In this document: one piece after another, positions 6,200-13,927 of the stretch
Position numbering within the stretch: the first letter of the stretch is position 1
Layout of the letters: every line of letters begins with the position of its first letter
From: Acidobacteriota bacterium
GTDB lineage: Bacteria > Acidobacteriota > Terriglobia > Terriglobales > Acidobacteriaceae
DNA: 46,389 nucleotides
Assembly (NCBI GenBank): GCA_021793405.1
Contig: JAJYSV010000032.1
Coordinates: 1 to 46,389 of the forward strand
Reading direction: 5' to 3'
The notes under the pieces: model-generated
Told to the model about the DNA's origin: nothing
Seen by the model: the letters and a program-made list of their open reading frames with translations, nothing else
The model's database searches: none
Program-made: the position numbers and the translations under genes

Positions 6200-6207
6200 T
6201 CGACCCA

Positions 6208-6236
6208 AGTATGGCTCTGTTTGGGTCGGATGTCAA
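6208..6236 (-). promoter_or_regulatory. Predicted promoter of the padR-ADOP operon
   Basis: Read on the minus strand: TTGACA (6231-6236), a 17-bp spacer and CATACT (6208-6213). Only 8 nt then separate the -10 hexamer from the padR ATG at 6199. Transcription would start at or within about 2 nt of the A of the start codon, so the mRNA would be leaderless. No ribosome-binding site is visible. The -35 box is perfect. Confidence 0.65.
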
Positions 6237-6243
6237 CCCAAAC
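6219..6243. promoter_or_regulatory. Candidate PadR operator, 8-bp inverted repeat
   Basis: Perfect arms GTTTGGGT (6219-6226) and ACCCAAAC (6236-6243) are separated by 9 bp that contain most of the -35 hexamer. A third related half-site, ACCCAAG, lies at 6203-6209 next to the start codon. A repressor bound here would block RNA polymerase. Assignment to this PadR protein is inferred from position; related regulators commonly autorepress. Confidence 0.6.
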
Positions 6244-6433
6244 GGAAATTCTGGAGGACGCCGAGAGACCGCTATCCACGCAATCGCGTATTTACGCAGC
6301 ATTATTCCGGCGACAAAAATACGAAGCCGGCCTGGGGCTTTCCCACATCGCCGAAAACGCAGGTATGTTTTTTGTTTCCAGCCGATTGAACGCCCAGCGC
6401 GTTGAATCAGAGTGCGGCAACGATTATGATAAA

Positions 6434-6473
6434 TTGACACAGATTAAGAACCATTCGATGACGACGCTATATC
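6434..6473 (+). promoter_or_regulatory. FNR/CRP-like box and -10 element before the cbb3 oxidase operon
   Basis: TTGAC-ACAG-ATTAA (6434-6447) matches eight of ten conserved positions of the FNR box TTGAT-N4-ATCAA. A TATATC hexamer follows at 6468-6473. If transcription starts about 6480-6482, the box is centred close to -41.5, the classical class II activator position. The hexamer TTGACA at 6434-6439 could instead be read as a -35 box, but the 28-bp gap to TATATC is too long. Microaerobic control would fit a cbb3 oxidase. The region 6244-6433 holds nothing else I recognise. Confidence 0.5.
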
Positions 6474-6533
6474 TTTCCCTGCAAGGTTAATACTGATAGG
6501 GTTGCTAATCTCTCCGGACGGAGGTCTTTGAGG

Positions 6534-6701
6534 ATGGCGAAGTCCGGCTCTGAGCCGTTTTCGCACAAGCAGGGATTGTTTGTGGTGCTGCTCCTGCTGC
6601 TGGGGGCCATCCTGGCTTTGGGCGCAATTTGTTACCTCGACCGGCAATCGCTAACTCGGCACGGTACATCACCGTCAAGTTCCCAGCGGAGCGACCATTG
6701 A
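6534..6701 (+). CDS. Small single-helix membrane protein preceding the cbb3 oxidase
   Basis: A 55-aa protein (MAKSGSEPFSHKQG...) with a hydrophilic N-terminus, one hydrophobic helix at about residues 15-34 rich in Leu/Val/Gly/Ala, and a Ser/Arg-rich tail. GGAGG lies 9 nt before the ATG. Its TGA stop overlaps the ATG of the oxidase gene (TGATG at 6699-6703), a classic arrangement for translational coupling. The size and position recall small accessory subunits or assembly peptides of heme-copper oxidases, but I see no signature that names a family. Whether it stays bound to the oxidase is unknown. Confidence 0.7.
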   Translation: MAKSGSEPFSHKQGLFVVLLLLLGAILALGAICYLDRQSLTRHGTSPSSSQRSDH

Positions 6702-9298
6702 TGACTGGCGTTGCAGAACGGCAGCGGATACAGGTCGCAACCGGCCTGGTGCGGGCACATACCTACGCGGCCTTTGTCGGGCTACTCATATCGGCGCTCT
6801 TTGGGTTGGCGGTTTCCGTCAAGTTTCATGTCCCCGAGTTTCTTACGAATCACGCCGCGCTGACATGGGGACGACTGCGATACGACCATACGCAAGGCAT
6901 CCTGTATGCCTGGCTCGGCAATGCCTTCCTCGCGTTCATCTACTATGCGGTCCCCTTTCTGACGCGCCGCCGCGTCACTAGCGAGCGGCTCGGCTGGATC
7001 ATGTTCTTCACCTACAACGTCGTAGCCGTGCTGGGTGGATGGACGCTGGTCCTGATGGGAGTGCTACAGCCGCTCGAATGGGCAGAGTTTCCTCTGGTTG
7101 TGGCTGCGGTCATTGAAACATGCTTCGTTCTGATGATCGTGCAGTTCGGCATCCCGTTTCTGAAATGCGGCGCCTCCGAACTCTACGTTTCAGGCTGGTA
7201 CCTGCTGGGCGGAATCACATTTACGACTCTCGCCTATCCGCTCGGCAACATTGTTCCGCATCTGCTTCCCGGTGCTATGGGAGCGGCCTTCAGTGGCCTT
7301 TGGATTCACGATGCCGTCGGACTCTTCGTTACGCCGATGGCGGTCGCAATAGAGTATTTTGTGATCTCCGCGGTCACACGGAAGCCAATCTACAGTCATT
7401 TTTATTCGATGGTCGGGTTCTGGCTGCTATTTCTTGTCTATCCGCTCAACGGCATTCATCATTACCTGTACTCTTCCCTGCCGATGATGGCGCAGCACGT
7501 CTCGGAAGCCGCATCCATCTATCAGGGAATCGATGTCATCATCGTGGTTACGAACCTGTTGCTCTCCATTGCCATTGCAACCGAGGGTACAGTGCTGGAG
7601 GATGTTCCCCTACGCTACATCTGGACGAGCATTGTGCTGTATCTGATCGTCAGCCTTCAGGGCTCCGTGCAGGCGGTGATGGCATTCAATCGCTTCATCC
7701 ACTTCACCGACTGGGTAATCGGCCATTCGCATCTGGCAATGATTGGATTCGCATCCTTCGCGGCGATGGGCGGTGTGAGCCATGTCTGGCAGCGAATGCC
7801 GGGAGTGCGACATAGCCGCCGCGCGCTGGCCTGGTCCTACTGGCTTCTTCTCATCGGACTCGGCCTCATGGTGCTGGATCTTTCCGGGGCGGGGCTTCTC
7901 CAGGCGAGCCTGTGGCAAAGCCACCTTCCATGGATCGATTCGGTGCGCGCTTCCCAGCCCTATTGGGTCTTCCGCACGGTCGATGGATTGATTTTGCTGT
8001 CTGGTTTTATTGTCTTTGCATGTAGCTTCCTGACCGGCGAGAGGAATCCAACCGGGTTCCTCGGAGTGGACCTCAACTCTGACGCGTACCATCTGCCCCG
8101 TCACGACAAAGCCGATTCCTGGTTTACCACGGCGTACGCAGCCACCTTTGGCGCGGGAGTGGTTTTTTTCGTCCTGTCATTCCTGATGCTGGGCGTCTAT
8201 CCGGCCATTCGCCTGCACGAATCTATTGAAAGGACCACGCCTGCCGGAGCACACCTCGCGCTCACTTCCTCCGAGCAGCGTGGGGCCAAGCTGTATGGCA
8301 TCGATGGGTGCGCCTATTGTCACACGATGCAGGTCAGGTACACCGCTGCCGACGAGTGGCGCTTCGGAAATCCTACCCAGGCATGGGAAACTCGCCAGGA
8401 GTATCCGCAGATGTGGGGCACACGGCGTATCGGGCCGGATCTCGCGCGCGAATCCGGCAAGCGGCCCGCGGACTGGCAACTGGTTCATCTCTACGACCCA
8501 CGGTACATCGTGCCGGATTCGGTCATGCCTTCGTATCCCTGGCTATTTGACGGTTCGCCTGATCGACCCACGCAGGATGCTCGCGATCTGGTCGCCTATC
8601 TCAATACCCTGGGACGCTCGGCGGCACAGCTTTCCCCCGCAAAACCTGCTCCAGTCTACGTGCAGCCGGTAGTCGCACCGGTGGATGATCGCGAGCAGGG
8701 GCGCGCGGTCTTCCTAGCGAATTGCTCTGGATGCCACGGCGTTCAGGCTGACGGCCAGTCGATCGGCGGTCGCGCTCTGCGGCCGGTCGCCTTCGATCTC
8801 GCCGGATTTCGTCTGACGGATGGCGACATCTGGCGCGCTCTGGAGCAAGGCGTTCCGGGATCATCCATGCCCTCGTGGGAAATGCTGCCGGCCTCGGATT
8901 TTCAGGCAGTGGCGGATTATGTCGCCTCGCTCGGAAATGCCGGCTCGTTGACCCCTGATCAGCAGTATGCGTCGCCTGAAGTTCTGAAGGAGGCCGGAAG
9001 AAGGGTTTACGAAAGCGACTGTGCCCGCTGCCATGGCGAGAATGCGGACGGAACTGGACCCGACGGCGCGGAGCTTCTGCCCCATCCGGCAAACTTCCAT
9101 CAGATGATGCCTTCCTACCCGGCCGCAGCCCGGATTCTTCATTCCGGCGTGCCCGGCAGCGGGATGCCCGCGTTCCCCCTCCTGACGCCGCCGGAAGTCC
9201 AGGCGGTCACCTATTACCTGCGCTCGTTTTATAGCGAGGGGAACAAGCAACCCGCGGCCGCAACCTCTGCCTCCCCACAGATGGGAGACATGCAATGA
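6701..9298 (+). CDS. cbb3-type cytochrome c oxidase, fused CcoN-CcoO-CcoP polypeptide
   Basis: An 865-aa terminal oxidase that reduces O2 to water in the inner membrane. Residues 1-500 are CcoN-like with many membrane helices. Low-spin heme ligands are likely H63 and H344, the heme b3 ligand H342 (GHSH), and CuB ligands H203, H253 and H254. Y247 sits six residues before H253, the place of the cross-linked Tyr in C-family oxidases. Residues about 500-640 are a CcoO-like monoheme domain (CAYCH at 537-541). Two further heme domains follow, CSGCH 675-679 and CARCH 774-778, as in CcoP. The start is the ATG overlapping the preceding stop; an in-frame extension to 6629 lies inside that small gene. 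Having all three subunits in one chain is unusual. No separate ccoN, ccoO or ccoP, and no ccoGHIS genes, are in view. Confidence 0.92.
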   Translation: MTGVAERQRIQVATGLVRAHTYAAFVGLLISALFGLAVSVKFHVPEFLTNHAALTWGRLRYDHTQGILYAWLGNAFLAFIYYAVPFLTRRRVTSERLGWIMFFTYNVVAVLGGWTLVLMGVLQPLEWAEFPLVVAAVIETCFVLMIVQFGIPFLKCGASELYVSGWYLLGGITFTTLAYPLGNIVPHLLPGAMGAAFSGLWIHDAVGLFVTPMAVAIEYFVISAVTRKPIYSHFYSMVGFWLLFLVYPLNGIHHYLYSSLPMMAQHVSEAASIYQGIDVIIVVTNLLLSIAIATEGTVLEDVPLRYIWTSIVLYLIVSLQGSVQAVMAFNRFIHFTDWVIGHSHLAMIGFASFAAMGGVSHVWQRMPGVRHSRRALAWSYWLLLIGLGLMVLDLSGAGLLQASLWQSHLPWIDSVRASQPYWVFRTVDGLILLSGFIVFACSFLTGERNPTGFLGVDLNSDAYHLPRHDKADSWFTTAYAATFGAGVVFFVLSFLMLGVYPAIRLHESIERTTPAGAHLALTSSEQRGAKLYGIDGCAYCHTMQVRYTAADEWRFGNPTQAWETRQEYPQMWGTRRIGPDLARESGKRPADWQLVHLYDPRYIVPDSVMPSYPWLFDGSPDRPTQDARDLVAYLNTLGRSAAQLSPAKPAPVYVQPVVAPVDDREQGRAVFLANCSGCHGVQADGQSIGGRALRPVAFDLAGFRLTDGDIWRALEQGVPGSSMPSWEMLPASDFQAVADYVASLGNAGSLTPDQQYASPEVLKEAGRRVYESDCARCHGENADGTGPDGAELLPHPANFHQMMPSYPAAARILHSGVPGSGMPAFPLLTPPEVQAVTYYLRSFYSEGNKQPAAATSASPQMGDMQ

Positions 9299-9510
9299 CA
9301 GCCTATCTGCTGGGAGCCGCCACTTTGATTCTGCTGGTGCTGATTGTATGGCGCCGCTCTTCTCCAGAGTTCCGCAGAAAAAGCGAGCAACCGAAGTTCC
9401 AGTTTCTTGCCAACCTGGGATTCAGACCCGACACAAATGCCACAACCGATGCTTCCAACAAAACCGTCACTCCTGAACGGAAAGGACCCCATGAAGAGCA
9501 TGAGCCGTAG
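9295..9510 (+). CDS. Small membrane protein, CcoQ-like position
   Basis: A 71-aa protein with one N-terminal membrane helix (AYLLGAATLILLVLIVW) and a charged cytoplasmic tail that ends PHEEHEP. The ATG overlaps the oxidase stop codon (ATGA at 9295-9298), so the two are translationally coupled. Length, single helix and position match CcoQ/FixQ subunits of cbb3 oxidases. The sequence is too short for assignment by motif. Its last 20 bp overlap the start of the next gene. Confidence 0.7.
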   Translation: MTAYLLGAATLILLVLIVWRRSSPEFRRKSEQPKFQFLANLGFRPDTNATTDASNKTVTPERKGPHEEHEP

Positions 9511-10207
9511 GTCGTTTGTTACTGCCGCTGTCGCTGGAGCTACATCTTTGAGCTCCATCGGAACGCTGTCCCAGGTTGCGGACGCGCAACTTGTCTACAC
9601 CACGAAGAACTGGAATACAGCCGAGTTCGATCAGCTAGCAAAGAATCCGGCCCGCATCAAGCAGGTCTATGACATTGTTCCTGTGGGCGGCGGAAAGTTC
9701 CTCAACAACATCAAGAACTCGCTGAACGGTTTGCATTTTGGATTCGGCATTCCAGACAATCAAATCAAAGTCGTAGCCGCGCTACATGGGCCGGCGAACA
9801 TGCTCAATTTCGACGATTTCATCTGGGAAAAATACAAGATCGGGGCATGGCTCAACATCGACGATCCGGCCACAGGGAAGCCGGCGACAAAAAATCCGTT
9901 CTATGCCAGCAAGGCGGGTGCTGATCTGCACTACGTTTCACAAGATCCGGACAGCAGGGACTCCATCTATCAGGACACGAGCATCGCGGCGCTGCAACAT
10001 CGCGGCGTGAAGTTTCTCAGCTGCCACACTGCAACCGAAGAGCAGGTACGCAATCTGATCCCGCATGACAACCTCTCGGAGCAACCGGAGCAGATTGTGA
10101 AGGAGATGCTTTCCCACGCGCTCCCAGGCGTGCTAGTCGTGGCATCCATGGTCGCCGCAATCGCACTGCTGCAAACCGAAGGTCATTACAGCTACATCAC
10201 TGTCTAA
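9491..10207 (+). CDS. Tat-exported DsrE-like protein
   Basis: A 238-aa protein. Residues 1-32 are a twin-arginine signal (SRRSFV, then an Ala/Ser-rich stretch ending VADA), so it is expected to be exported folded. The body has alternating beta strands and helices, including IKVVAALHGPANML and GVKFLSC. This fits the DsrE/DsrF fold used by sulfur-relay proteins, and C178 is the only Cys, as expected for a persulfide-carrying residue. A hydrophobic segment near the C-terminus (LPGVLVVASMVAAIALL) may pack into the fold or anchor the protein. AAAGGA precedes the ATG. Its place between the cbb3 oxidase and TsdA suggests a periplasmic role with sulfur compounds. The fold call is by pattern only. Confidence 0.65.
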   Translation: MKSMSRRSFVTAAVAGATSLSSIGTLSQVADAQLVYTTKNWNTAEFDQLAKNPARIKQVYDIVPVGGGKFLNNIKNSLNGLHFGFGIPDNQIKVVAALHGPANMLNFDDFIWEKYKIGAWLNIDDPATGKPATKNPFYASKAGADLHYVSQDPDSRDSIYQDTSIAALQHRGVKFLSCHTATEEQVRNLIPHDNLSEQPEQIVKEMLSHALPGVLVVASMVAAIALLQTEGHYSYITV

Positions 10208-10239
10208 ACGACACGGTGGATTGGATTATGGAGGAAAAG

Positions 10240-11202
10240 ATGAGGCTGCGCCCAAGACGATCGATTCTTCTGCCCGGAGTGATTCTGATGGGCCTTGTGC
10301 AGGGGCAATGCAAAGGCCAGACGTCTCCTCCATGGAGCAAGGGCGCGAACAATCCGGCCGCCAGTAAAGGGTATATATTCCAGGTGCCGGACGTCGATAA
10401 CGTTCCCGACCTCCATGGGAACCCTGCCGATGCGAAGCTCGTGCTTTTTATCGGAGGCAACCAGTTCTTCGTTCTTCCCAGTCTGATCGAAGGCTTTGTA
10501 AGGCAGCATCCGGATCTGCGCGGCCGCATATTCTATGAGACGTTGCCTCCGGGCATTCTTCGCAGGCAGATCGCCGCGGACGACACCCTTACGCTCGGCA
10601 ATCTCACTTTGCGGGTCAAGCCGGATGTCTACGAAGCGGGAGCGCGGGTGGTGCGCCAGATGGAAGAGAAAAAGCAGGTCACAGGCGTGGTCGAGTACGC
10701 GACCAATACGCTTGCAATCATGGTGGCTGCGGGCAATCCCAAGCACATCGCATCGCTGAACGATTTGGGCCGCGCCGATGTGAAACTTTCGATGCCCAAC
10801 CCTCAATGGGAGGGAATCGCGAATCAAATCATCGGCTCGCTGCGCAAAGCCGGGGGTGAACAACTGTATGAGACCGTATATCAGAAAAAAGTGGCGGACG
10901 GAACTACAGTTCTAACTGAGGTCCATCATCGCCAGACACCCATGCGCATCCTGCAAGGCCGAGCGGATGCGGGCGTGACATGGGCATCCGAAGTCGAGTT
11001 TCAGAAGAAGATCGGCAACCCGATCGTGGGTGTCGATATTCCGGCATCGCTTAACACCAAGGCTACATACGCGGCTGGGATGATGGTGGACGCGGCCCAC
11101 CCGCAGGCCGCCGCCCAGTGGCTAGCTTATTTGAAGAGTCCGGAAGCGCAGCAGAGTTATCGCCAGTTTGGCTTCGAGTCGGTAAAAAGCCGCTCGAAGT
11201 AG
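10240..11202 (+). CDS. ModA-like periplasmic substrate-binding protein (orphan)
   Basis: A 320-aa exported type 2 periplasmic binding protein. A basic N-terminus and hydrophobic stretch (RRSILLPGVILMGLV) form the signal. The mature part shows PADAKLVLFIGGNQFFVLP, a mid-domain TGVVEYATNTLAIMVAAGNP typical of ModA-like folds, GRADAGVTWASEV, and a C-terminal AAAQWLAYLKSPEAQQSYRQFGF as in molybdate- and tungstate-binding proteins. The start at 10240 has GGAGG five nt upstream; ATG 10228 and TTG 10216 are less likely. No ABC permease or ATPase gene is near, so it may serve as a carrier or sensor rather than feed a transporter. The ligand is unknown; an oxyanion is plausible from the family. Confidence 0.75.
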   Translation: MRLRPRRSILLPGVILMGLVQGQCKGQTSPPWSKGANNPAASKGYIFQVPDVDNVPDLHGNPADAKLVLFIGGNQFFVLPSLIEGFVRQHPDLRGRIFYETLPPGILRRQIAADDTLTLGNLTLRVKPDVYEAGARVVRQMEEKKQVTGVVEYATNTLAIMVAAGNPKHIASLNDLGRADVKLSMPNPQWEGIANQIIGSLRKAGGEQLYETVYQKKVADGTTVLTEVHHRQTPMRILQGRADAGVTWASEVEFQKKIGNPIVGVDIPASLNTKATYAAGMMVDAAHPQAAAQWLAYLKSPEAQQSYRQFGFESVKSRSK

Positions 11203-11212
11203 AGGAAATCGG

Positions 11213-12007
11213 ATGAAGTATCAAAGCCCCGCCCTGGCGGGCATATGCACATGTTTACTCGCAGGCATTCTGACGGGCTGCTCCGGCCCACACCCGGTTG
11301 CGCCTCCCGTTACCGTGACGGAACAATCGCGCTTCCAGACGGCCAATATCCCAGCCGGCAGCGCAGGCGAAGAGATCCGCAAGGGCAAGCTGATCTTCGA
11401 CGAGACTCCAAAGTACGCCCATGCCTACGTTGGAAATCAGCTCTCCTGCGCCGACTGCCACGTCAACAGCGGCACCATGCCGCACGCCTCGCCGATGATC
11501 GACATGTCCAATATGTTTCCGATGTTCAACCAGCGGGCCGGTCGTGTGATTTCTATGCAGGAGCGCTTCCAGGAGTGCTTTGCCCGCAGTGAAAATGGGA
11601 GTCCGCCCCCGCTGAACAGCGAGGAGATCAGGGCTTTGACTGCCTACGTGGACTGGCTTTCCAAAGATGGAGTGAAGAACAAAGCATTCTCTGGTCGCGG
11701 ATTTGTCAAGCTACCAGATCTGACCGGTAACCCTACCCAAGGGATCGCCATCTACGCCGTCAACTGTGCCGAATGCCATGGCGGGGATGGAGCAGGGGTC
11801 CCTCCGGTGATTCCAGCGTTATGGGGACCCAATTCCTACAATGACGGCGCCGGGATGAACAACCCGGTGAAAATGGCCGCCTTCCTCGTCCCCAACATGC
11901 CGCAAAATAATCCAGGCTCCCTGACGCCGCAACAGGCTTTCGACGTTGCTGCGTTCATCCACACGATGCCGCGCCCGAAGTTCAACGAAGCCTACAAGCA
12001 TTACTAA
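11213..12007 (+). CDS. tsdA: TsdA-type diheme thiosulfate dehydrogenase, lipoprotein
   Basis: A 264-aa c-type cytochrome that would couple two thiosulfates into tetrathionate and pass electrons on. A lipobox (ILTGC, Cys23) predicts a lipid anchor. The first heme site CADCH is at 79-83, followed by NSGTMPHASP and FPMFNQRAGRVISMQERFQECF. C122 stands where TsdA has its unusual Cys axial heme ligand. The second heme site CAECH is at 185-189, then PALWGPNSYNDGAGMN and a C-terminal AFDVAAFIHTMPRP, all in TsdA order. It begins 10 bp after the binding-protein gene and ends the operon. The adjacent cbb3 oxidase is a natural electron sink. Related diheme cytochromes with other substrates cannot be excluded. 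Confidence 0.82.
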   Translation: MKYQSPALAGICTCLLAGILTGCSGPHPVAPPVTVTEQSRFQTANIPAGSAGEEIRKGKLIFDETPKYAHAYVGNQLSCADCHVNSGTMPHASPMIDMSNMFPMFNQRAGRVISMQERFQECFARSENGSPPPLNSEEIRALTAYVDWLSKDGVKNKAFSGRGFVKLPDLTGNPTQGIAIYAVNCAECHGGDGAGVPPVIPALWGPNSYNDGAGMNNPVKMAAFLVPNMPQNNPGSLTPQQAFDVAAFIHTMPRPKFNEAYKHY

Positions 12008-12009
12008 AA

Positions 12010-12179
12010 CGGATTTACAGTTTGTAAGGCTTTTGTGATAAGGAGTCATTCTGAACGGAGCACAGCGAAGTGAAGAATTCAGACGACATGCACAGAGTAG
12101 ACTCTGCCATCACCGTCTGGATTCTTCGCTGCGCTCAGAATGACTCATCTCATTTTTGAATACCATATCTGTAAATCCG
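12010..12179. repeat. Nested inverted-repeat element between convergent genes
   Basis: Outer arms CGGATTTACAG (12010-12020) and CTGTAAATCCG (12169-12179) are perfect. Inside are GAGTCATTCTGA (12043-12054) and TCAGAATGACTC (12135-12146), also perfect. Further in are CAGACG/CGTCTG (12080-12085, 12114-12119) and a central CAGAGT-AG-ACTCTG (12093-12106). The strings GCGAAG and GAATC between them also pair imperfectly. The whole can fold as one long cruciform or hairpin. I recall TCATTCTGAGCG-AGCGAAGAATC strings as common intergenic repeats in several bacterial genomes. It fills almost exactly the gap between tsdA and the dehydratase and probably acts as a bidirectional terminator. Confidence 0.8.
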
Positions 12180-12181
12180 CC

Positions 12182-13927
12182 TTAAGGATGCGAAGACTGC
12201 GCGTCGGCCTCGAAAACCTGCGACTCCGCGGCGTCCAGAAGAAAGTCAAAGTCGCATCCTTTATCGGCCTGCGTCACGCGTTCCCGATAGAGAGCCAGGT
12301 ATCCACGTTGCTCCTTGGGAACCGGCCTGGTCCATTCGGACCTGCGCTGTTCGAGTACTTGCTCCGGCACGAGCAGGTCCAGCTTTCGATTCGGAATATC
12401 GAGCGTGATTTTGTCGCCATCGCGGACCATGGCAAGTGGACCGCCGATATAACTTTCCGGCGAAACGTGCAGGACGCACGTGCCATATGCGGTGCCGCTC
12501 ATGCGGGCGTCGGAGATTCGCACCATATCTCGTATGCCGCGCTGTAGCAGTTTCTTGGGAATTGGGAGCATTCCCCACTCCGGCATTCCTGGACCGCCGA
12601 GTGGGCCGGCATTCTGAAGGACCAGAATAGAATTTTCGTCCACCGTCAGGTCCTCACGGTCGATGCGTTCCTCCATGTCCTTAAAATCCTTGAACACGAC
12701 GGCGGGCCCGGTGTGCTGCCAGAATCTCGGATCTGCGGCAACCGTCTTGATGACCGCTCCATCCGGCGCGAGGCTCCCGTAGAGAATCGCCGTTCCGCCG
12801 CTTTCCATCAGCGGCGCCTCGCGACTGCGGATCACCTCAGAGTTGATAACACGCGCGCCTCGCAGATTTTCTCCCACCGACTTTCCGTTCACGGTGACGC
12901 AGTCGAGGTTGAGAAGATCCCTGATTTCAGCCATCAAGGCGCGCAATCCTCCGGCGTAATAGAAATCCTCCATCAGAAACTTTCCGGACGGCCGGATGTT
13001 GGCAAGCACGGGAACGTGGCGCGAGATTTCATCGAATACGCGGAGAGGTAGATCGAAGCCCAGCCGCCGGGCGAGTGCGACCAGGTGAATAATGGCATTC
13101 GTCGAGCCACCGATGGCCATGTCCACCGTGATGGCATTCCGCAAAGCTAATGGCGTCAGAATATCTCTGGGTTTCAGGTCCTCCCAAACCATCTCCACAA
13201 TGCGCCCACCGCAGTCGATTGCCAGTCGTACATGATTGGAATCCGCAGCCGGAATCGAAGACGCACCGGGCAGCGTCATTCCCATCGCTTCCGAAAGAGC
13301 GGTCATGGTCGAGGCGGTTCCCATCGTCATGCAAAATCCGGGCGACCGGGCGATTCCGGTTTCGACGCCGTGCCATTCCTCGTCGCTGATGTTGCCGGCG
13401 CAACGCTCCGTCCAGAATTTCCAGACATCGGTGCCGCTGCCGAGCGCCTGGCCATTCCAGTTGCCGCGCAGCATGGGGCCTGCGGGCAGATAAATCGCCG
13501 GCAGGTTTGCGCTGATCGCACCCATCAGCAGGCCGGGAGTTGTCTTGTCGCAGCCGCCCATCAGCACTGCGCCATCGATCGGCAGACTACGCAACGCCTC
13601 CTCGGTATCCATCGCCAGCAGATTCCGGTAGAGCATCGGACTGGGCTTCATGTAGGTTTCGGTGATAGAGAACGCCGGAATTTCCACGGGAAATCCTCCC
13701 GCCTGCCATACCCCGCGCTTCACTGCCTCTGCCCGTTCGCGCAGGTGGATGTGGCACGGGTTGATTTCGCTCCACGTGTTCACAATAGCGATCACCGGCT
13801 TGCCGGTGAAGTCTTCCCGCCGGTAACCAACCTGCATCATGCGCGAACGATGACTGAAGCCGCGCATCGTGTCCGGGCCAAACCAGCTATAACTGCGCAG
13901 ATCCTCAGGCTTTTTCCTGGATGTCAT
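12182..13927 (-). CDS. IlvD/Edd-family sugar-acid dehydratase (arabinonate/xylonate-type)
   Basis: A 581-aa cytoplasmic Fe-S dehydratase that removes water from an aldonic acid to give a 2-keto-3-deoxy acid. Cluster-ligand candidates are C58 (NTWSEINPC), C126 (LMGGCDKTTPG) and C199 (GFCMTMGTASTM). The beginning (SWFGPDTMRGFSHRSRMMQ) and LPAGPMLRGNWNG resemble L-arabinonate/D-xylonate dehydratases more than IlvD of branched-chain synthesis. The ATG at 13927 starts MTSRKKPEDL; a longer frame to 13981 runs deep into the transporter gene. It overlaps the end of the MFS gene by 23 bp, so import and dehydration of the acid are coupled. The exact sugar acid cannot be fixed by eye. Confidence 0.88.
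   Translation of the reverse strand: MTSRKKPEDLRSYSWFGPDTMRGFSHRSRMMQVGYRREDFTGKPVIAIVNTWSEINPCHIHLRERAEAVKRGVWQAGGFPVEIPAFSITETYMKPSPMLYRNLLAMDTEEALRSLPIDGAVLMGGCDKTTPGLLMGAISANLPAIYLPAGPMLRGNWNGQALGSGTDVWKFWTERCAGNISDEEWHGVETGIARSPGFCMTMGTASTMTALSEAMGMTLPGASSIPAADSNHVRLAIDCGGRIVEMVWEDLKPRDILTPLALRNAITVDMAIGGSTNAIIHLVALARRLGFDLPLRVFDEISRHVPVLANIRPSGKFLMEDFYYAGGLRALMAEIRDLLNLDCVTVNGKSVGENLRGARVINSEVIRSREAPLMESGGTAILYGSLAPDGAVIKTVAADPRFWQHTGPAVVFKDFKDMEERIDREDLTVDENSILVLQNAGPLGGPGMPEWGMLPIPKKLLQRGIRDMVRISDARMSGTAYGTCVLHVSPESYIGGPLAMVRDGDKITLDIPNRKLDLLVPEQVLEQRRSEWTRPVPKEQRGYLALYRERVTQADKGCDFDFLLDAAESQVFEADAQSSHP

Follow-up and report, generated by a model that had tools for sequence, protein, structure and literature searches.

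Two unrelated families of thiosulfate dehydrogenase are the closest points of reference for the operon described here. In Acidithiobacillus ferrooxidans, the gene of the first, TSD, lies beside a gene for a sulfate/molybdate-type binding protein in the cluster tsd-sbp-doxDA (AFE_0042-0044; PMC6335251, PMC2754497), where its partner is the thiosulfate:quinone oxidoreductase DoxDA. The second, TsdA, found alone or as TsdBA in Allochromatium, Pseudomonas and Halomonas, is a diheme cytochrome with a Cys-ligated haem, and a route from TsdA through TsdB to a cbb3 oxidase has already been proposed (PMC9237845). We have analysed a six-gene operon from a bacterium of the Acidobacteriota (assembly GCA_021793405.1, contig JAJYSV010000032.1), which sits on contig 9 of a 4.6-Mb genome, within a stretch of 46,389 nucleotides that we call the window. 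The operon probably encodes a periplasmic chain for the oxidation of sulfur oxyanions that ends in an oxidase of its own, and, judged by sequence comparison, it appears to combine relatives of both dehydrogenase families. Its genes, all on the + strand between positions 6534 and 12007, are:

6534..6701, + strand: gene 1, small membrane protein of 55 amino acids (one hydrophobic stretch, by eye)
6701..9298, + strand: gene 2, one-chain cbb3-type oxidase, a CcoN-CcoO-CcoP fusion of 865 amino acids (three CxxCH motifs)
9295..9510, + strand: gene 3, small membrane peptide of 71 amino acids in the place of CcoQ (by position)
9491..10207, + strand: gene 4 (Tsd), twin-arginine protein of predicted DsrE fold, related to TSD (NF052225 match)
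10240..11202, + strand: gene 5 (SBP), putative periplasmic binding protein of oxyanion type, 320 amino acids (SBP_bac_11)
11213..12007, + strand: gene 6, TsdA-type diheme cytochrome c of 264 amino acids (SoxA-TsdA_cyt-c, Cytochrom_C)

These coordinates were confirmed, and the packing is as tight as the initial annotation had it: genes 1 and 2 overlap by 1 base (TGATG), genes 2 and 3 by 4 bases (ATGA) and genes 3 and 4 by 20 bases, while gaps of only 32 and 10 bases follow genes 4 and 5. The six genes would probably be cotranscribed.

The operon resembles the Acidithiobacillus cluster in pairing a relative of TSD with a binding-protein gene, but instead of DoxDA it offers TsdA and a cbb3-type oxidase, DoxD not being found in the genome. 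Like the TsdA and TsdBA systems it encodes a diheme cytochrome with a predicted Cys-ligated haem; unlike the TsdBA systems it lacks TsdB, encodes a divergent one-chain oxidase and adds Tsd and the binding protein. The initial annotation had called the DsrE-like protein and the binding protein foreign to the standard cbb3 or TsdA gene sets. Their linkage to such genes holds, but the tsd-sbp pair is not new, since it is known in Acidithiobacillus (PMC6335251, PMC2754497). What we add is a divergent oxidase linked to sulfur dehydrogenases, one operon that holds relatives of both unrelated dehydrogenase families, and a sulfur front end that seems interchangeable. No description of this cassette appeared in the titles or abstract openings of the literature searched, subscription papers lying outside that scope.

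The oxidase and its genomic partners

Gene 2 carries the Pfam domains COX1 (181.9 bits), FixO (102.8 bits), Cytochrome_CBB3 and Cytochrom_C, and three CxxCH motifs can be read from its translation, so that CcoN, a monohaem CcoO and a dihaem CcoP follow each other in a single chain, as first annotated. It matches a cbb3 chain in the PDB at E 2.4e-32. In an alignment of 22 CcoN parts (20 of the 24 clade loci defined below plus 2 outgroup rows), H63, H203, Y247, H253, H254, H342 and H344 are invariant; these correspond to the haem and CuB ligands and the cross-link Tyr of cbb3 structures. Because that Tyr and all the oxidase ligands checked are kept, an identity as nitric oxide reductase was rejected. 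Gene 2 thus shares the CcoN metal ligands and the CcoO and CcoP haems with cbb3-type (C-family) oxidases, including the bifunctional subunit I/II form (PRK14485). Unlike them, it holds all three subunits in one chain, scores far under the family cut-offs (272 vs 1080 bits; NCBIfam ccoN 150 vs 583, ccoO 80 vs 201, ccoP 51 vs 180 bits), and belongs to a clade tied to sulfur dehydrogenase genes. By these models, gene 2 is a divergent relative of canonical cbb3. A high affinity for oxygen, assumed from the outset, may be expected of it. Two further CcoN positions are unusual: residue 239 (7415-7417) is Gly in 22/22 rows, against the His (VHFW) of solved cbb3 chains, and residue 320 (7658-7660) is Gln in 21/22 rows, replacing the EGP glutamate, with Glu in L210.

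In the host genome, gene 2 is by far the best FixO match (106.6 bits), the next two (56.1 and 38 bits) passing the cut-off with their stretches summed, and the surroundings of the three other COX1 proteins match gene 2 at only 44-53 bits.

We then ask which genes accompany this oxidase elsewhere. Among 399 genomes of the class searched with gene 2, 32 matched at E 1e-60 or below, and 24 of these, at 500 bits or more, were taken as its clade. A gene for a sulfur-anion dehydrogenase (TsdA, Tsd or SorAB) adjoins the oxidase in 22 of the 24 clade loci; the other two (L215, L229) are cut by contig ends, and none is contrary. By tblastn, none of nine distant cbb3 loci (32-33% in CcoN) has TsdA, Tsd or SorAB. 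This search is a more independent test of the association than one that starts from Tsd. The dehydrogenase itself varies. Tsd-SBP-TsdA follows the oxidase in five loci (the window, L040, L209-L211) and TsdA in ten (L220-L228, L230), four of which also have Tsd downstream (L220, L221, L227, L230). SorA-SorB, the sulfite dehydrogenase, one subunit of which is a cytochrome c, is not present in the window; it precedes the oxidase in six of the 24 (L212, L213, L214, L216, L217, L219); in the two Sor loci scanned, SorA (441-490 bits, cut-off 600) and SorB (68-71 bits, cut-off 93) all scored below cut-off. The remaining locus, L218, is weighed below.

In a CcoN tree of 31 clade rows plus four of the nine distant loci, the Tsd-SBP-TsdA loci (10 rows), the TsdA loci (11 rows, one of them a cut locus) and plasmid copies (2 rows) form separate clades, each at 100/100. 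The base of the tree is unresolved; from it the Sor loci branch in three lines, and L218 goes with Sor loci.

In seven of the TsdA loci (L220, L221, L222, L223, L225, L226, L228), the opposite strand immediately before the oxidase also encodes small exported proteins, judged DsrE-like by eye; one from the L220-L228 group was compared with NCBIfam and had no match. Rhodanese or BLH-phosphatase-like genes lie downstream in several of these loci and in L227 and L230.

Two small genes flank gene 2. Gene 1, whose stop overlaps the ATG of gene 2 at 6701, has no family above cut-off in Pfam or NCBIfam; a comparable small gene precedes the oxidase in L069, L070 and L073, and by eye L210 has a small hydrophobic open reading frame there. 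Gene 3 had been called CcoQ-like. Its position fits, and relatives occupy the same place in other loci and on plasmids (35-44% over 27-54 amino acids), but no profile, FixQ included, matches it above cut-off. This position and the weak FixQ match of a plasmid relative (16.7 bits vs a cut-off of 29) make it a candidate CcoQ.

Tsd, the binding protein and TsdA

Gene 4 matches the NCBIfam model for thiosulfate dehydrogenase, NF052225, at 94.5 bits (E 6.4e-27), short of its cut-off of 300. This score places it among the distant relatives of the Acidithiobacillus-type TSD, outside the family proper; the model itself was presumably built on AFE_0042. Plasmid proteins that do pass NF052225 (371 and 417 bits) are 29-31% identical to gene 4 (E 2.6e-20 and 4.9e-21, the set compared being small). 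A CxxCH motif is absent from gene 4 and from these relatives. Its single cysteine, Cys178, is invariant in 51/51 rows of gene 4 relatives. Together with N76, W112, K114, Y115 and others it is also invariant in 10 Tsd rows that include plasmid Tsd, two of the rows looking identical, and in that alignment two plasmid DsrE proteins have their cysteine at the same position. A twin-arginine motif, seen by eye, predicts Tat export: R6 is invariant, and the second Arg is Lys in some relatives.

The DsrE-like character noticed at first survives as a predicted fold but finds no echo in Pfam, where neither PF02635 (DsrE), at E up to 1, nor any family above cut-off was matched; a PDB sequence search using Tsd also gave nothing useful. 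An AlphaFold (AF2) model from 51 sequences, with a predicted local distance difference test (pLDDT) of 88.5, aligns in VIA-align with DsrE/YchN folds at Z 13.8 (root-mean-square deviation 1.4 over 107 residues to 2pd2), other folds reaching at most 4.2. Foldseek alone has the same top chain at E 1.8e-3, and none at 0.001 or better. Gene 4 would thus adopt a DsrE fold, and as a distant relative of TSD it becomes a candidate enzyme, beyond an accessory role. The structure and mechanism of TSD were called unresolved in a 2019 review (PMC6335251); for this family we offer a predicted fold, a cysteine that may be catalytic and a possible electron acceptor.

Other Tsd relatives were met in passing. 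A second one (~41%) is present in the same genome (contig 12, L055 12025-15218), where three genes separate it from an HvfX-family-like protein that scores 39.7 bits against a cut-off of 80. In L056 (8219-14717), a Tsd paralogue lies beside siroheme synthase-, sulfite reductase-, CysH- and CysN-like genes that, by eye, resemble an assimilatory sulfate operon.

Gene 5 is the orphan ModA-like binding protein that had been described: it matches SBP_bac_11 (PF13531) at 153.3 bits, and none of the permease or ATPase genes of an oxyanion importer of the ATP-binding cassette (ABC) class (ModA/CysP type) lies inside the operon. Its AlphaFold model (pLDDT 84) is closest to the sulfate binder SubI (Z 22.6) and the molybdate/tungstate binders ModA/WtpA (Z 22.3). 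Residues ~30-60 (10327-10419) form a strongly conserved N-terminal segment outside the matched fold, possibly a docking part. Elsewhere, in L097 (10639-11529), an ABC-ATPase-like gene, judged by eye, stands convergent after TsdA; its cluster was seen in 7 loci.

The first annotation of gene 6 as a TsdA-type diheme cytochrome stands. It matches A. vinosum TsdA in the PDB over residues 43-259 (E 1.4e-42), as well as SoxA-TsdA_cyt-c (PF21342, 42.2 bits) and Cytochrom_C, and has two c-type haem motifs. Its R108, R118, C122, S126 and M229 are the equivalents of A. vinosum R109, R119, C123, S127 and Met209; of these, the Cys ligand, both Arg and the Ser were shown to matter in the A. vinosum enzyme (PMC4423706). 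The four are kept in 48/48 relatives, which are those of the 73 loci found with Tsd (see below) that had a TsdA match and entered the count, and in 10/10 members of a second family; the haem-2 Met is kept in 47/48, with one gap. The first Arg is Lys in three plasmid relatives. By this alignment Cys122 is the predicted ligand of haem 1, and a TsdA look-alike without the Cys ligand was rejected, Cys122 and its helper residues being kept. One further locus, L101 (8001-12494), has a tandem Tsd pair and two TsdA genes in a single cluster.

The gene order in other genomes and on plasmids

Searched from the Tsd side, the neighbourhood recurs widely. Tsd was matched in 23/61 related genomes and in 22/396 genomes drawn from the phylum, and a named search gave 73 loci, by title all acidobacterial except one from an 'unidentified bacterium'. 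The loci counted are not independent, because several share one genome (L071/L089, L084/L105, L085/L113, L119/L120) and the named loci overlap with the other genome sets searched. Fifty-one loci extend 2.7 kb or more downstream, and among them the binding protein is next to Tsd in 45 and TsdA is also present in 41; in the 59 with at least 3 kb upstream of Tsd, the oxidase is found in 18. Where both flanks are available (41 loci), the full order oxidase-Q-Tsd-SBP-TsdA occurs in 15. Six have neither the oxidase nor the whole triad Tsd-SBP-TsdA (the pair Tsd-SBP is present in two of them, L075 and L110), and in no locus does the oxidase occur while the triad is missing. In 20 of the 41 the triad stands without an adjacent oxidase (CcoN part); one of these, L081, retains a cytochrome piece of the oxidase.

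The synteny expected in acidobacterial genomes is thus found, from Tsd in 15/41 loci and from the oxidase in the 22/24 clade loci given above, and the recurrence of the gene order in many genomes rules out an accident of one genome. Since the triad also occurs without the oxidase, Tsd-SBP-TsdA is the core unit. No common upstream partner of the oxidase-less triads was seen by eye among L077, L097, L106, L112, L130 and L141; a LysR-type regulator lies directly upstream in L077 (6834-7763) and L130 (6913-7821).

Plasmids of other phyla carry parts of the same equipment. Tsd was matched in 24 of 72,556 plasmid records. In the six inspected, the binding protein is next to Tsd in five (in the unannotated record H3 as judged by tblastn) and not in Methylocella; gene 5 shares 47-52% identity with the Tsd-adjacent binding proteins of five Proteobacteria plasmids. 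Tsd-SBP is followed by DoxD on Gluconobacter and Acetobacter plasmids, and a TsdA-like cytochrome lies near Tsd-SBP on plasmids of Paraburkholderia, Bradyrhizobium and Bosea. Among the best 15 of 57 records, the closest oxidases are those of Paraburkholderia, Komagataeibacter and Acetobacter (47-54% overall), the next being at 29% or less. The Acetobacter block reads DsrE - SBP - SBP - cytochrome - TsdA-like - CcoN - CcoOP - small Q-like gene, and the annotated pattern of Komagataeibacter pGX3 is the same; on the Paraburkholderia plasmid, DsrE and SBP are encoded divergently, and the Q-like gene is followed by one more SBP.

Compared with the window, the plasmid proteins are 54-55% (CcoN), 41-43% (CcoOP), 50% (SBP) and 36-37% (TsdA-like) identical. 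The plasmid cassette differs in that CcoN and CcoOP are separate and a diheme cytochrome is added, with no counterpart of gene 1 seen; its DsrE protein is shorter, belongs to PF02635 and is only distantly akin to Tsd. The three oxidase-cassette plasmids (L245, L246, L247) bear Tn3-type transposases, and two of these plasmids, L245 and L246, additionally have a Tsd-SBP unit apart from the cassette. The presence of copies on plasmids suggests that this gene set is passed between bacteria.

Around the window operon itself, a promoter scan stayed at chance level (2 vs a shuffle mean of 2.6). Terminator-like sites numbered 11 against a shuffle mean of 4.9 (standard deviation 2.5), all at or before 11924, so that the scan gave none after gene 6. 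No repeats were found in 6200-6720, on the upstream side; just past the operon, at 11998-12191, two nested inverted repeats with arms of 23 and 19 nt resemble a small palindromic element.

Proposed pathway and competing readings

We envision the chain as follows. In the periplasm, gene 5 would hold thiosulfate or a closely related sulfur oxyanion, as its fold and gene partner suggest. The exported gene 4 protein, which has no haem motif, could then act through Cys178 and TsdA through its Cys-ligated haem 1 to oxidise two thiosulfates to tetrathionate, a step proposed because the two proteins are relatives of unrelated thiosulfate dehydrogenase families and because the catalytic residues of TsdA are conserved. 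From the His/Met haem 2 of TsdA, electrons would pass to the two CcoP-type haems, to the CcoO-type haem, to haem b and through haem b3-CuB to oxygen; the haem motifs and the copper and haem ligands are there, and it is the path between them that we infer. Tetrathionate is the likely product, since SoxB and DoxD were not found in the host genome; with SorAB giving only a weak below-cut-off match (SorA, 30.4 bits), the idea that Sox, DoxD or SorA completes the pathway was set aside. In related loci the front end would be exchanged, TsdA with or without Tsd or else SorAB, around a constant oxidase clade.

Several observations pull against this proposal, of which the substrate, direction and electron route are its more conjectural parts. 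The 94.5 bits of gene 4 against a cut-off of 300 do not assure its activity. The ligand of gene 5 is not fixed by the fold, since citrate, sugar-phosphate and iron binders follow closely (Z 18.7-20.4; other binders as a whole 18.7-20.9). Having SorAB among its partners, the oxidase clade seems to serve sulfite too. L218 (the same locus as L090) has Tsd, but SBP and TsdA are both missing from the 2.4 kb left before its contig end, which also hold a gene on the opposite strand. The triads without oxidase indicate that Tsd-SBP-TsdA can feed another acceptor. Finally, the residue before the haem-2 Met of TsdA is Asn in the window and in 35/48 relatives, as in the tetrathionate reductase TsdA of C. 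jejuni (PMC5146829), so that the direction of the enzyme is not certain.

Taken furthest, this last point would make TsdA run in reverse as a tetrathionate reductase, the operon switching between oxygen and tetrathionate as acceptors. We consider this very unlikely: other residues stand there in 12/48 (T in 4, A in 5, F in 3, beside one gap), R or K does so in 10/10 of the second family, and the genetic partner is an oxidase. The oxidase could also be a general respiratory enzyme, fed mainly by quinol:cytochrome c reductase, with the sulfur genes adjacent only through a shared use at low oxygen. Three cytochrome b proteins in the host genome, which may feed it from quinol, and the 20 oxidase-less triads would fit, yet the neighbours of the clade vary while remaining sulfur-anion dehydrogenases (22/24, vs 0/9 for distant cbb3), and plasmids carry a matching set, which makes this quite improbable.

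Two other readings leave the sulfur chemistry in place and change its purpose or its mechanism. The system may serve sulfur detoxification or assimilation, dumping electrons on oxygen with little energy gained, a notion in keeping with the Tsd paralogue of L056 among genes that by eye resemble assimilatory sulfate reduction, with SoxB and DoxD not being found in the host genome and with rhodanese and BLH-phosphatase-like genes in the vicinity at other loci; by argument only, a haem-copper oxidase with all its metal ligands seems costly for pure detoxification, and we find the notion doubtful. Alternatively, though this too strikes us as rather unlikely, Cys178 may be a carrier: gene 5 would load gene 4 with thiosulfate, and the TsdA/SoxA-type cytochrome would oxidatively conjugate or release the sulfur on Cys178. 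If true, gene 4 would be no stand-alone dehydrogenase, and the operon would be a periplasmic relay like that of Sox (SoxAX-SoxYZ), assembled out of unrelated components and connected to a dedicated oxidase.

Our preferred reading, a sulfur-oxyanion oxidation chain with its own oxidase, can be approached at the bench: the full order is present in Acidipila rosea DSM 103428 and Edaphobacter aggregans DSM 19364, and since the whole operon thus exists in two culture-collection strains, the pathway is directly testable. Acidobacteriota, which abound in soil, are not commonly known as thiosulfate oxidisers. Our results suggest that an oxidase lineage accompanies sulfur-anion oxidation in this phylum, and that the gene kit shared by many acidobacteria and some proteobacterial plasmids may represent a little-noticed route of sulfur respiration.

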